A stretch of DNA of 64,000 nt from Halanaerobiales bacterium. Lineage in GTDB: Bacteria > Bacillota > Halanaerobiia > Halanaerobiales > Halanaerobiaceae. The notes under the pieces are model-generated. The model was not told the DNA's origin. It was given only the letters and a program-made list of their open reading frames with translations, and ran no database searches. Numbering within the stretch: the stretch's first letter is position 1; every line of letters begins with the position of its first letter. Made by a program: the position numbers and the translations under genes. The DNA is taken from NCBI GenBank assembly GCA_016278485.1, contig JADQBT010000020.1:1-64000 (forward strand), in the 5' to 3' direction. Below, in pieces: positions 9,426 through 61,006 of the stretch.

Positions 9426-9429
9426 CCAC

Positions 9430-9459
9430 TTGACAAAATCATAATTACTGTCTTATAAT
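9430..9459 (+). promoter_or_regulatory. Strong sigma-70 promoter of small RNA copy 1
   Basis: A consensus TTGACA (9430-9435) and a consensus TATAAT (9454-9459) are 18 bases apart on the plus strand. Transcription would start near 9466 and run into the structured RNA. The identical promoter occurs at 59575-59604. Confidence 0.8.
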
Positions 9460-9465
9460 TTAAGT

Positions 9466-9631
9466 ATAAAGATAAAATAAATGCATATTCTTAATAAAGA
9501 GGATTATTGAGGGCAGAACAGGCATCTGTCACACCCTCTGGGTATAAAGTGATGTGGGATACGCTGGGATACGCCGCCCCACCAATAATCCTCCCATTTT
9601 TTAATAAAGCCTTTTAAGGCTTTATTTTTTT
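9466..9631 (+). ncRNA. Structured small RNA, family not recognised (copy 1)
   Basis: This non-coding transcript has its own consensus promoter and a perfect terminator: 9-bp stem AATAAAGCC/GGCTTTATT at 9603-9626 followed by a T run. The body folds as a closed unit. An outer helix GAGGATTATTG (9499-9509) pairs with CAATAATCCTC (9583-9593). Inside it, AGGG/CCCT closes one arm and GTGGG/CCCAC another, giving a three-way junction. This copy carries a 10-base tandem duplication (GGGATACGCT then GGGATACGCC) compared with the copy at 59.6 kb. There is no open frame with a ribosome binding site. It does not look like 6S, SRP, tmRNA or a riboswitch family I know. Confidence 0.75.
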
Positions 9632-9849
9632 AATTGTACCCTCTTTTAAATATCTTTCAACTTTACTATTACTTACGTAATATAAACTCCTCACAAATAA
9701 TGTGTCTTTTCTACTAGCCCTGACCGCGACTAACACATTTTTATCAAACTCTTTGATAAATTCTATTCCTCCCTGAGAAGGGTGAACCCCAACATAGGGA
9801 TGTCCAATACCCCAACAAAATCTGTTGTTGAACTGTATTTGTTTATCAT
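9614..9849 (-). pseudogene. PBECR-type nuclease gene, broken copy
   Basis: Both ends match the intact gene at 59749-60126: the 3' part up to CCCCAACATAGG and the 5' part from GATGTCCAATACCCC. The 142 bases between them are missing, so the reading frame is shifted as well as shortened. The 3' end still overlaps the terminator of the small RNA, as in the intact copy. Confidence 0.75.
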
Positions 9850-9894
9850 AATAAACCCCACTTTTCTTATGCTAATTATAACAATTTACCATTT

Positions 9895-9995
9895 ATAGTA
9901 TAATTCCTGCAAATATCACAAAAAAATCTATTTCACATGGGGTTTAACTTTCTTACCTCACAAATAGCTCCAGCCCAATCAGCGGCCAGTAGAAT
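9895..9995 (-). mobile_element. IS21-type transposase remnant
   Basis: About 80 bases are shared almost exactly with 60168-60258. On the minus strand they encode LLAADWAGAICEVRK, which agrees with the end of the IstA-like fragment at 63654 (LLAADWAGGFC). The frame is broken by stops. It marks the edge of a duplicated block and lies directly downstream of a SEC-C gene. Confidence 0.5.
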
Positions 9996-10033: not shown

Positions 10034-10780
10034 TTACTCGTCTTTCCCCAGGCAGCACTTTTTGTACTTCTTCCCACTACCACACGGACATGGATCGTTC
10101 CTAACAACCTTTTTCCTATGCTTCATATCAATTATATTGGTTTGATTAAAATCGAATGGTTTATCCGGAAGTGGTCTCAGGTTTGGTTTCTCAAACTTCT
10201 CAAATATCTCGTAAGGTGTATGCCCGTTGTTCTCCCAGATTCTGATGTTATTGGAAAGCTCCATAACAAGCTGAATTACTTGATTAGCCTGGTCCATATC
10301 CTGAAAGCTAATGCCCCGGTCGTTAAAAATATCTAATATAATTTGCATATTCAGTCCAAATTTACATGTCCCATGAACATCCTCGCAGAGCCATTCAGCT
10401 TTTTCTTCCTCGCCCTTAAAAAAGTTCTTCTTTATATATTTGATTAAGGCATTGTACTCTTTAGATTTCTCAAAATAACCTTCATCAACGTATTTGAGAA
10501 GTTCAATCTTATTTGGAACGTAGTGAGGCTTATCTCTCTTTTTCCTCAACATTAAATCAAACTCATCATGTTCCATGATAGCCTCATGAACAAAGTGGTC
10601 TTTGTAAGTTTCAATGAAAGCATCTTCCAGCTCTGCTGATGGATTGGAGAGAAGTTCTTCAACTTCAGTAAGACTGATTTGATCTTTATTCTGGCTGTTG
10701 TAAATTTCTACAACTTTTTCCTTGTGGACCATTCCATAAAGATTTGATAATGAGATTATATACTGTGTTAATTGGCTCAT
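10034..10780 (-). CDS. SEC-C motif protein (copy 1)
   Basis: This 248-residue soluble protein ends in a SEC-C zinc-binding motif, [16 protein letters not shown], the same module that sits at the tail of SecA. The rest is helical and acidic, without a motif I recognise. SEC-C tails often accompany nucleic acid or protein-binding domains in defence-island genes, but the role here is unknown. Full-length paralogues lie at 57560 and 60260 and a chimeric one at 41997. This copy differs in having VVRNDPCP where the others have VGRNDPCP. Confidence 0.75.
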   Translation of the reverse strand: MSQLTQYIISLSNLYGMVHKEKVVEIYNSQNKDQISLTEVEELLSNPSAELEDAFIETYKDHFVHEAIMEHDEFDLMLRKKRDKPHYVPNKIELLKYVDEGYFEKSKEYNALIKYIKKNFFKGEEEKAEWLCEDVHGTCKFGLNMQIILDIFNDRGISFQDMDQANQVIQLVMELSNNIRIWENNGHTPYEIFEKFEKPNLRPLPDKPFDFNQTNIIDMKHRKKVVRNDPCPCGSGKKYKKCCLGKDE

Positions 10781-59570: not shown

Positions 59571-59574
59571 CTAC

Positions 59575-59604
59575 TTGACAAAAACATAATTACTGTCTTA
59601 TAAT
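59575..59604 (+). promoter_or_regulatory. Strong sigma-70 promoter of small RNA copy 2
   Basis: Consensus TTGACA (59575-59580) and TATAAT (59599-59604) are 18 bases apart, the same as at 9430-9459. Confidence 0.8.
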
Positions 59605-59610
59605 TTAAGT

Positions 59611-59767
59611 ATAAAGATAAAATAAATGTATATTCTTAATAAAGAGGATTATTGAGGGCAGAACAGGCATCTGTCACACCCTCTGGGTATAAAGTGATGT
59701 GGGATACGCCGCCCCACCAATAATCCTCTCATTTTTCTATAAAGCCTTTTAAGGCTTTATTTTTTTA
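59611..59767 (+). ncRNA. Structured small RNA, family not recognised (copy 2)
   Basis: This is nearly identical to the RNA at 9466, without the 10-base duplication. The outer helix GAGGATTATTG (59644-59654) pairs with CAATAATCCTC (59718-59728), with AGGG/CCCT and GTGGG/CCCAC arms inside. The terminator stem ATAAAGCC/GGCTTTAT (59739-59760) is followed by TTTTTTT. The last five codons of the PBECR-type nuclease gene on the other strand lie within this terminator, so the two genes converge on one bidirectional hairpin. Confidence 0.75.
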
Positions 59768-60126
59768 ATTGTACCCTCTTCTAAATATTTTTCAACTTTA
59801 CTATAACTTATGTAATATAAACTCCTCACAAATAATGTATCTTTTCTACTAGCTCTAACAGCTACTAACACATTTTTATCAAACTCTTTGATGAATTCTA
59901 TTCCTCCCCGAGAAGGATGAACTCCAACATAGGTAGGTTCTTTTATTATTTCAGGTAGTTTATCAATATATTTCTCAAATTCTTCATTATGTTTTTTTCT
60001 AATGTGTTTTTTATTCGTAGAGCCGATATAAATATTCTGTGGTTCAAAATCCAGATTGAGTTTATTAATGATTTTGATGTCCAATACCCCAACAAAATCT
60101 GTTGTTGAACTGTATTTATTTATCAT
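59749..60126 (-). CDS. PBECR-type nuclease domain protein
   Basis: The 125-residue protein resembles the PBECR (phage-Barnase-EndoU-ColicinE5/D-RelE) nuclease group: NIYIGSTNKKHIRKKHNEEF, DKLPEIIKEPTYVGVHPSRG, FIKEFDKNVLVAVRASRKDT, and LYYISYSKVEKYL. Conserved His in KHIRKKH and Arg in the RASRK strand are candidate catalytic residues. These domains cleave RNA and are found in phage and toxin proteins. I favour the ATG at 60126 over a GTG at 60138. The short form without a partner suggests either a toxin or an accessory nuclease. Confidence 0.65.
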   Translation of the reverse strand: MINKYSSTTDFVGVLDIKIINKLNLDFEPQNIYIGSTNKKHIRKKHNEEFEKYIDKLPEIIKEPTYVGVHPSRGGIEFIKEFDKNVLVAVRASRKDTLFVRSLYYISYSKVEKYLEEGTIKKIKP

Positions 60127-60164
60127 AATAAACCCCACTTTTCTTATACTAATAATAACAATTT

Positions 60165-60258
60165 ACCATTTAAAGTATAATTCCTGCAAATATCACAAAA
60201 AAATCTATTTCACATGGGGTTTAACTTTCTTACCTCACAAATAGCTCCAGCCCAATCA
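60165..60258 (-). mobile_element. IS21-type transposase remnant
   Basis: This is the same 80-base block as at 9895-9980 (TGCAAATATCACAAAAAAAT and AGCTCCAGCCCAATCA). It encodes the DWAGAICEVRK piece on the minus strand and is joined directly to the end of a SEC-C gene. Confidence 0.5.
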
Positions 60259-60259
60259 A

Positions 60260-61006
60260 CTACTTGTCTTTCCCCAGGCAGCACTTCTTGTATTTTTTCC
60301 CACTGCCACAGGGACATGGATCGTTTCTACCGACCTTTTTCCTGGTCTTCATATCAATTATATTGGTTTGATTAAAATCGAATGGTTTATCCGGAAGTGG
60401 TCTCAGGTTTGTTTTCTCAAACTTCTCAAAAATTTCATTTGGTGTATGCCCATTGTTTTCCCATATTCTGATGTTGTTGGATAGCTCCATTACAAGCTGA
60501 ATTACTTCATTAGCCTGGTTCATATCTTTAAAGCTAATGCCTCGGTCGTTAAAAGTATCTAATATAATCTGCAAATCCAGTCCAAATTGACATATCCCAT
60601 GAATATCTTCGCAGAGCCATTCAGCTTTTTCTTCTTCGCCCTTGAAGAAGTGTTTCTTGACATATCTTAAAAGAGCATTATACTCTTTAGATTTCTCAAA
60701 GTAACCTTCATCAACGTATTTGAGGAGTTCATTCTTCTTTGGAACGTAGTGAGGCTTATCTCCCTTTTTCCTCAACATTAAATCAAACTCATCATGTTCC
60801 ATGATAACCTCATGAACAAAGTAGTCATTGTAAGTCTCAATGAAAGCATCTTCCAGCTTTGCTGATGGATTGGAGAGAAGTTCTTCAACTTCAGTCAGAC
60901 TAATTTGATCTTTATTCTGGTTGTTGTATATTTCTACAACTTTGTCTTTATGGACCATTCCATAAAGATTTGATAATGCGATTACGTACTCTGTTAATTG
61001 GCTCAT
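60260..61006 (-). CDS. SEC-C motif protein (copy 3)
   Basis: This 248-residue paralogue with the C-terminal [16 protein letters not shown] is closest to copy 1 in the N-terminal half and to copy 2 in [12 protein letters not shown]-type residues, which suggests exchange between copies. It carries KLEDAF where the others have ELEDAF. It is preceded by a region with a hairpin and the broken USP-like gene. Confidence 0.75.

Follow-up and report, generated by a model that had tools for sequence, protein, structure and literature searches.

Skipping-rope RNA adjoins genes for stand-alone PBECR-fold nucleases and is a candidate RNA antitoxin

We found that the skipping-rope RNA, a family that was already known (Rfam RF02924), has a partner protein that is new here: a stand-alone nuclease of the PBECR fold, whose gene lies beside the RNA in a fixed geometry. 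The stretch of DNA that we analysed (the window, 64,000 nucleotides of contig JADQBT010000020.1 from a Halanaerobiales bacterium) holds two copies of the RNA, the only two in that genome. Copy 2 faces an intact nuclease gene, and copy 1 faces the remains of one. Across genomes, plasmids and viruses we observed that the RNA has a covarying fold and often a promoter of its own, and that the nuclease is lost far more readily than the RNA. We consider it likely that skipping-rope serves a module of two genes as its RNA antitoxin, and that the toxin is the stand-alone PBECR-fold (barnase/EndoU/colicin/RelE-like) endoribonuclease. An RNA family without a recorded function thereby gains a partner protein. 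The family was reportedly discovered by Weinberg et al. in 2017 (NAR). We found no function for it in the literature searched, which did not include that 2017 discovery paper, and in which skipping-rope is cited as a pseudoknot example only (PMC7779021) and is mentioned as occurring in phage sequences (PMC8501573).

Both window copies are matched by RF02924 over the full model (positions 1-80), with scores well above the gathering cutoff of 36.7 bits (Table 1). The initial annotation of copy 1, made from the sequence alone, held that the RNA fits no known family, and these matches rule that out. It had also named a significant Rfam hit to a housekeeping RNA as grounds for giving up its reading; an Rfam match exists, but skipping-rope is not a housekeeping RNA. 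Much of the remaining description was borne out. The perfect TTGACA/TATAAT promoter is found just before the transcript start that it gave, the 11-bp closing helix is there and is perfect (9499-9509 with 9583-9593), and the strong terminator is present as a hairpin with a T run. The claim of a real structured small RNA, present twice and transcribed on its own, is supported, and the copy 1 region has a folding z-score of -3.24, with none of 200 shuffles folding equally well. The 10-base tandem duplication was likewise seen: the 10-mer TGGGATACGC stands at 9555-9564 and again at 9565-9574 in copy 1, is missing from copy 2, and leaves intact the pairs that close the GTGGG/CCCAC arm (9554-9558 with 9578-9582). 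This 10-nt insertion is the sole RNA difference between the window copies and RF02924, with which both share the same stems and the same pseudoknot (shown in PMC7779021).

Table 1. Features of the two skipping-rope loci in the window, duplicated blocks of the window, and neighbour genes at other loci
Feature	Position	Strand	Evidence
Promoter of RNA copy 1, TTGACA-18 nt-TATAAT	9430-9459	+	12/12 consensus bases
Likely transcript of RNA copy 1	9466-9631	+	ends placed by promoter and terminator
Skipping-rope core, copy 1 (RF02924)	9502-9590	+	60.0 bits
10-nt tandem duplication, P4 loop region, copy 1 only	9555-9574	+	two-copy alignment
Intrinsic terminator of copy 1 (hairpin 9603-9626, T run to 9631)	9603-9631	+	
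PBECR RNase gene remnant beside copy 1	9614-9861	-	self-alignment, pairwise alignment, HMM
Promoter of RNA copy 2 (locus L001), TTGACA-18-TATAAT	59575-59604	+	12/12
Skipping-rope core, copy 2 (RF02924)	59647-59725	+	70.8 bits
Intact gene for a PBECR2/3-fold RNase, the predicted toxin, facing RNA copy 2	59749-60138	-	PF18812 6.6e-26, PF18810 1.7e-10
Duplicated blocks	4952-5632/49785-50465; 5916-7030/56228-57342		
Duplicated blocks	10029-10806/41978-42374/57561-58338/60258-61036; 58324-59568/61206-62542		
Toxin-antitoxin or abortive-infection genes beside RNA copies without PBECR	L097:4670-5079; L117:2351-3091; L111:2340-2905; L010:1159-1586; L017:1190-1956		

The junction is where the initial annotation went astray, since it described three ways; the RNA folds into a four-way junction (P1, P2, P3 and P4), to which a kissing loop between P2 and P4 is added. 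In copy 1, the P2 loop GGC (9521-9523) pairs with the P4 loop GCC (9573-9575). The GGC/GCC pseudoknot is present in both window copies and becomes GGU/ACC among relatives, its core pairs being kept in 39-40 of 41 and in 45-46 of 47 sequences; a C-G to U-A replacement occurs in five. Covariation in relatives, a check that the annotation itself had named, is present in an alignment of 84 distinct RNAs: paired cells make up 90.5%, against 72.9% when shuffled, changes on both sides are found in 21 of 27 pairs, and the signal is lost when the pairing partners are slid. The RNAs were aligned by fitting them to the model, which biases these figures in favour of the proposed structure. An apparent second RNA subtype (in L006-L009, L012, L018, L022, L024 and L026) was rejected as an artefact, as these loci lay on the opposite strand.

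The proportions of this junction resemble those of a tRNA. The cloverleaf of tRNA has linkers of 2, 1, 4-5 and 0 nt; in skipping-rope they measure 2, 1, 4 and 0 nt in 38, 40, 40 and 40, respectively, of 40 RNAs that were not picked by sequence pattern. P2 and P4 have five base pairs each, the P2 loop reads A-A-N-N-G-G in the manner of a D-loop, and the loop-loop contact joins the second and fourth arms, such that P2 corresponds to the D arm and P4 to the T arm. Unlike in tRNA, P1 is 8-11 bp long, P4 lacks a T-loop, and the P3 arm, at the place of the anticodon arm, is short and variable. A CCA end was looked for in skipping-rope and was not found, no tRNA was called in the window by the tRNA covariance model or ARAGORN, and cmscan gives RF02924 only. 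The likeness is a resemblance and not family membership.

The initial annotation proposed no function for the RNA and overlooked both the RNase gene beside copy 2 and the remnant beside copy 1. The intact gene encodes 129 aa, with scores above the cutoffs for both PF18812 (PBECR3) and PF18810 (PBECR2), and its last codons fall within a terminator hairpin that it has in common with RNA copy 2. The end of the remnant similarly overlaps the copy 1 terminator. In a self-alignment of the window (9428-9798 with 59573-59933, and 9799-9981 with 60076-60258), the remnant shows a deletion of 142 bp, located between 9798 and 9799, by which residues ~22-69 are gone and the frame is shifted. The deletion takes the N-terminal half, including a conserved His, and the HMM match of the remnant covers the C-terminal half only. 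The alignment column of window His50 is at least 90% conserved, and R-S/T near the C-terminal strand is common; a helix His and a C-terminal Ser/Thr are described for PBECR, a predicted phage-type RNase, by Iyer et al. (PMC5512222). An AlphaFold2 model of the intact product has a pLDDT of 92. Its best solved matches in a fold search are the RNase toxins BrnT and HigB, both weak (E about 0.1), and it also matches viral MuF/nuclease proteins at an E of 7e-6. No solved structure matching the RNase by sequence was found, and neither PADLOC nor NCBIfam gave it a defence-system name; the RNase of plasmid pTA1060 has one weak match (0.003) to PD-T4-4_A. No homology to ToxN, CptN or TenpN was detected, Pfam returning PBECR3 and PBECR2 only.

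The pairing of RNA and nuclease recurs well beyond the window. Among 398 genomes of the same phylum, RF02924 is found in 27 and PBECR3 in 20, with both in 14, where 1.4 would be expected (P=2.8e-14). In this sample, stand-alone PBECR3 genes abut the RNA (within about 130 nt) in 15 of 17 cases. Of the two exceptions, one (G416/L013) has the RNA 1.9 kb off on the same strand, with a UPF0236/ISL3-like transposase gene in between, and the other (G363) is a stand-alone RNase of 191 aa with no detectable RNA. None of five PBECR3 domains that form part of large polyvalent proteins (693-2356 aa) had the RNA, which ties the linkage to the stand-alone form; a fused PBECR3 frame of 509 aa (G272) does carry the RNA. 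A search of plasmid proteins with the pTA1060 RNase as query returned 16 records from Bacillus, Planococcus, Enterococcus, Streptococcus, Fusobacterium and Treponema (Bacillota, Fusobacteriota and Spirochaetota), and the RNA was present on the 3' side in 16 of 16, many of these plasmids being near-identical, so that they represent about six independent lineages. The plasmid RNAs score 55-71 bits with model R2, and Rfam agrees on the five tested as well as on pTA1060 and Planococcus. Further viral loci, selected by the RNase and with enough downstream DNA, carried the RNA in six of six, and in Streptococcus suis prophages the RNase (annotated spbA) is encoded next to the attachment site and is followed by the RNA at a distance of 18 nt. 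Distances among the RNAs are correlated with those among the RNases (Mantel r=0.78, P=2e-4), which fits a module travelling together and is also expected of any linked pair.

When loci were chosen from the side of the RNA, the partner was less constant. The RNase adjoins the RNA in 16 of 30 Rfam loci chosen by RNA alone, and in 19 of 36 assessable loci that a DNA pattern picked out in named genomes (L058 and L069, which fitted this pattern, were excluded because the RNA model did not match them). At about half of the RNA loci no PBECR gene could be recognised in the vicinity, and the RNA may accordingly have further partners or roles. These loci, together with the phage copies within tRNA arrays described below, favour the view that skipping-rope is an independent trans-acting small RNA that acts on another target, such as an mRNA or a host protein, and that co-travels on mobile elements. 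Hitch-hiking, however, would not put the RNA on every one of the 16 nuclease plasmids, and it leaves unexplained both the constant 3' position within about 125 nt and the lack of the RNA at polyvalent PBECR genes. We regard an independent small RNA as quite unlikely.

The RNA always lies 3' of the RNase gene, either on the same strand, 6-125 nt past the stop codon, or convergent to it at 13-35 nt, as in the window, pTA1060, Bacillus velezensis, Planococcus, L061 and L062. Promoters matching at least 10 of 12 positions are found just upstream in 47 of 88 RNAs, where shuffles expect 3.4; they often overlap the end of the RNase gene, and 64 of 88 RNAs have a T run downstream. We considered whether the RNA controls the nuclease mRNA, as an antisense (type I) antitoxin or as a 3'-UTR or terminator element, which would suit its 3' position and the terminator hairpin that the two genes have in common in the window. 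But same-strand and convergent layouts both occur, which excludes an obligate 3' UTR, and the orphan phage copies have no nuclease mRNA in cis. Antisense action was rejected, as the RNA-mRNA duplex energies show no cognate advantage (-40.2 kcal/mol for cognate vs -38.6 kcal/mol for mismatched duplexes; median rank 10.5 of 28). Control of the mRNA in any of these forms is highly improbable. An integron-type attC site or mobile cassette end, suggested by the position of the RNA after an ORF, was set aside because both orientations are found, together with a promoter, a terminator and loop-loop covariation.

Several RNAs stand without a functional nuclease. In the lytic Lactococcus phages WRP3, LW81 and phiL47, the RNA forms part of a tRNA/tmRNA cluster, where it starts 2 nt after a tRNA gene and lacks its own promoter. 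Lactococcus phage 949, whose copy is the top-scoring of all, carries it in the same tRNA/tmRNA cluster, and Brevibacillus phage Jenst has it near a tRNA cluster; the kissing-loop pairing is complete in the orphan phage RNAs. Elsewhere an intact RNA lies beside a broken RNase, through the deletion at window copy 1, an in-frame stop in Moorella and a frameshift in B. velezensis. The RNase is thus commonly lost where the RNA is kept, and the reverse is rare, as one would expect for a toxin paired with an antitoxin.

This asymmetry also bears on the possibility that the RNA activates the nuclease as a cofactor or guide, forming with it an RNA-dependent enzyme like the RNA-guided nucleases. Such a role would predict tight linkage and fixed geometry equally well, and in TnpB-type systems the RNA does lie at the 3' end of the nuclease gene. 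An activator should vanish with its enzyme, however, whereas skipping-rope persists without the nuclease, lytic phages included. We also found no variable guide-like segment in the RNA, everything outside the P3 loop and P1 being conserved or base-paired, and to our knowledge BECR RNases of toxin-antitoxin systems work without RNA cofactors. We therefore judge an activating role unlikely.

We think it most probable instead that skipping-rope is an antitoxin, in a module that would work as follows. A strong promoter of its own would drive surplus production of the RNA, as a separate small transcript with a terminator, and the RNA would fold into the four-way junction braced by the P2-P4 kissing loop. 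We infer that the folded RNA binds the nuclease and holds it inactive, and that loss of the RNA, or a halt in its supply, would free a nuclease that is predicted to be toxic. Small plasmids, prophages and genomic islands would carry such modules, and window copy 1 would be an antitoxin that has outlived its decayed toxin. Lytic phages in which the RNA occurs by itself probably neutralise host modules with it, in a putative anti-defence role. A more specific version, in which tRNA mimicry is the mode of binding, would make skipping-rope a single-copy tRNA-shaped decoy and the first of a new antitoxin class, blocking a BECR-fold toxin that cuts tRNA or mRNA; lytic phages would carry the decoy within tRNA arrays, from which tRNA processing would free it to serve as an anti-defence RNA. 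We put this version forward tentatively, as a possibility against which we lean somewhat. If the module is real, the RNA-antitoxin systems gain a member whose toxin fold is not known from the others; it is spread over three phyla and is present on prophages and on natural plasmids, B. subtilis pTA1060 among them. It would also explain the RNA among lytic-phage tRNA genes and give the stand-alone PBECR nucleases a function.

Among known systems, the closest parallels are with the type III toxin-antitoxin systems (ToxIN, CptIN and TenpIN), in which the antitoxin is a set of tandem repeats upstream of the toxin, with a terminator between and one promoter (PMC5086642). These also combine a small endoribonuclease toxin (here predicted) with a structured, pseudoknotted RNA, are carried by plasmids, prophages and chromosomes, and have RNA copies in phages. 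In contrast, the partner of skipping-rope is of the PBECR family and not the ToxN family, and the RNA is single-copy rather than a tandem array, lies after or facing the toxin gene and usually has its own promoter. The module probably works like type III yet departs from it in two defining features, the toxin family and the upstream tandem repeats under one promoter. The one exception to the single copy is L062:8063-8232 (minus strand), on a G+C-rich viral contig, where two tandem skipping-rope RNAs converge on a single PBECR gene, an arrangement that recalls the repeat antitoxins of type III systems. Non-classical RNA antitoxins do exist, as the AbiF/RCd22 pair of Clostridioides difficile demonstrates (PMC12373285). 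That pair is similar in its non-classical toxin, in its structured RNA, which has a SigA promoter of its own and neutralises the toxin in trans, and in its place in Bacillota prophages, but AbiF is an Abi_2 (HEPN) protein, and RCd22 precedes the gene and has two repeated motifs that differ in structure from skipping-rope. For the orphan copies, a model is offered by the pseudo-ToxI of phage PhiTE (PMC5449768), a phage-borne antitoxin-like RNA that suppresses a host RNase toxin. Its repeat is amplified in escape mutants, whereas the skipping-rope copies are stable, near-consensus and located in tRNA arrays.

A few of the RNA copies that lack PBECR have other toxin-antitoxin or abortive-infection genes as neighbours, namely those for YafQ, Gp49/HigB, AbiD and Pol-beta nucleotidyltransferases (Table 1). 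In a Streptococcus satellite phage (L117:2351-2573), skipping-rope directly follows the Rfam small RNA SpF41 (RF02435), and near the skipping-rope of phage Jenst BsrG (RF01412), a type I toxin-antitoxin RNA, is strongly matched (L116:4532-4806). On pTA1060-type and Planococcus plasmids, a gene for an HTH protein of ~300 aa stands ahead of the nuclease gene (L118:2996-3913, L119:3006-3908) and may be co-transcribed with it. The 305-aa HTH protein of the pTA1060-type plasmids was rejected as a general component, as it is not general across loci. A SEC-C gene upstream in the window (10034-10780 and 60260-61006) was likewise dropped as a third component, being absent from other loci, and is treated as context. 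The window is rich in duplicated blocks that are about 86-98% identical in self-alignment, and the duplicated genes include an AbiEi-like gene, a DUF6765 gene and the SEC-C gene (up to four copies), among others. These blocks suggest an island that is expanding by segmental duplication.
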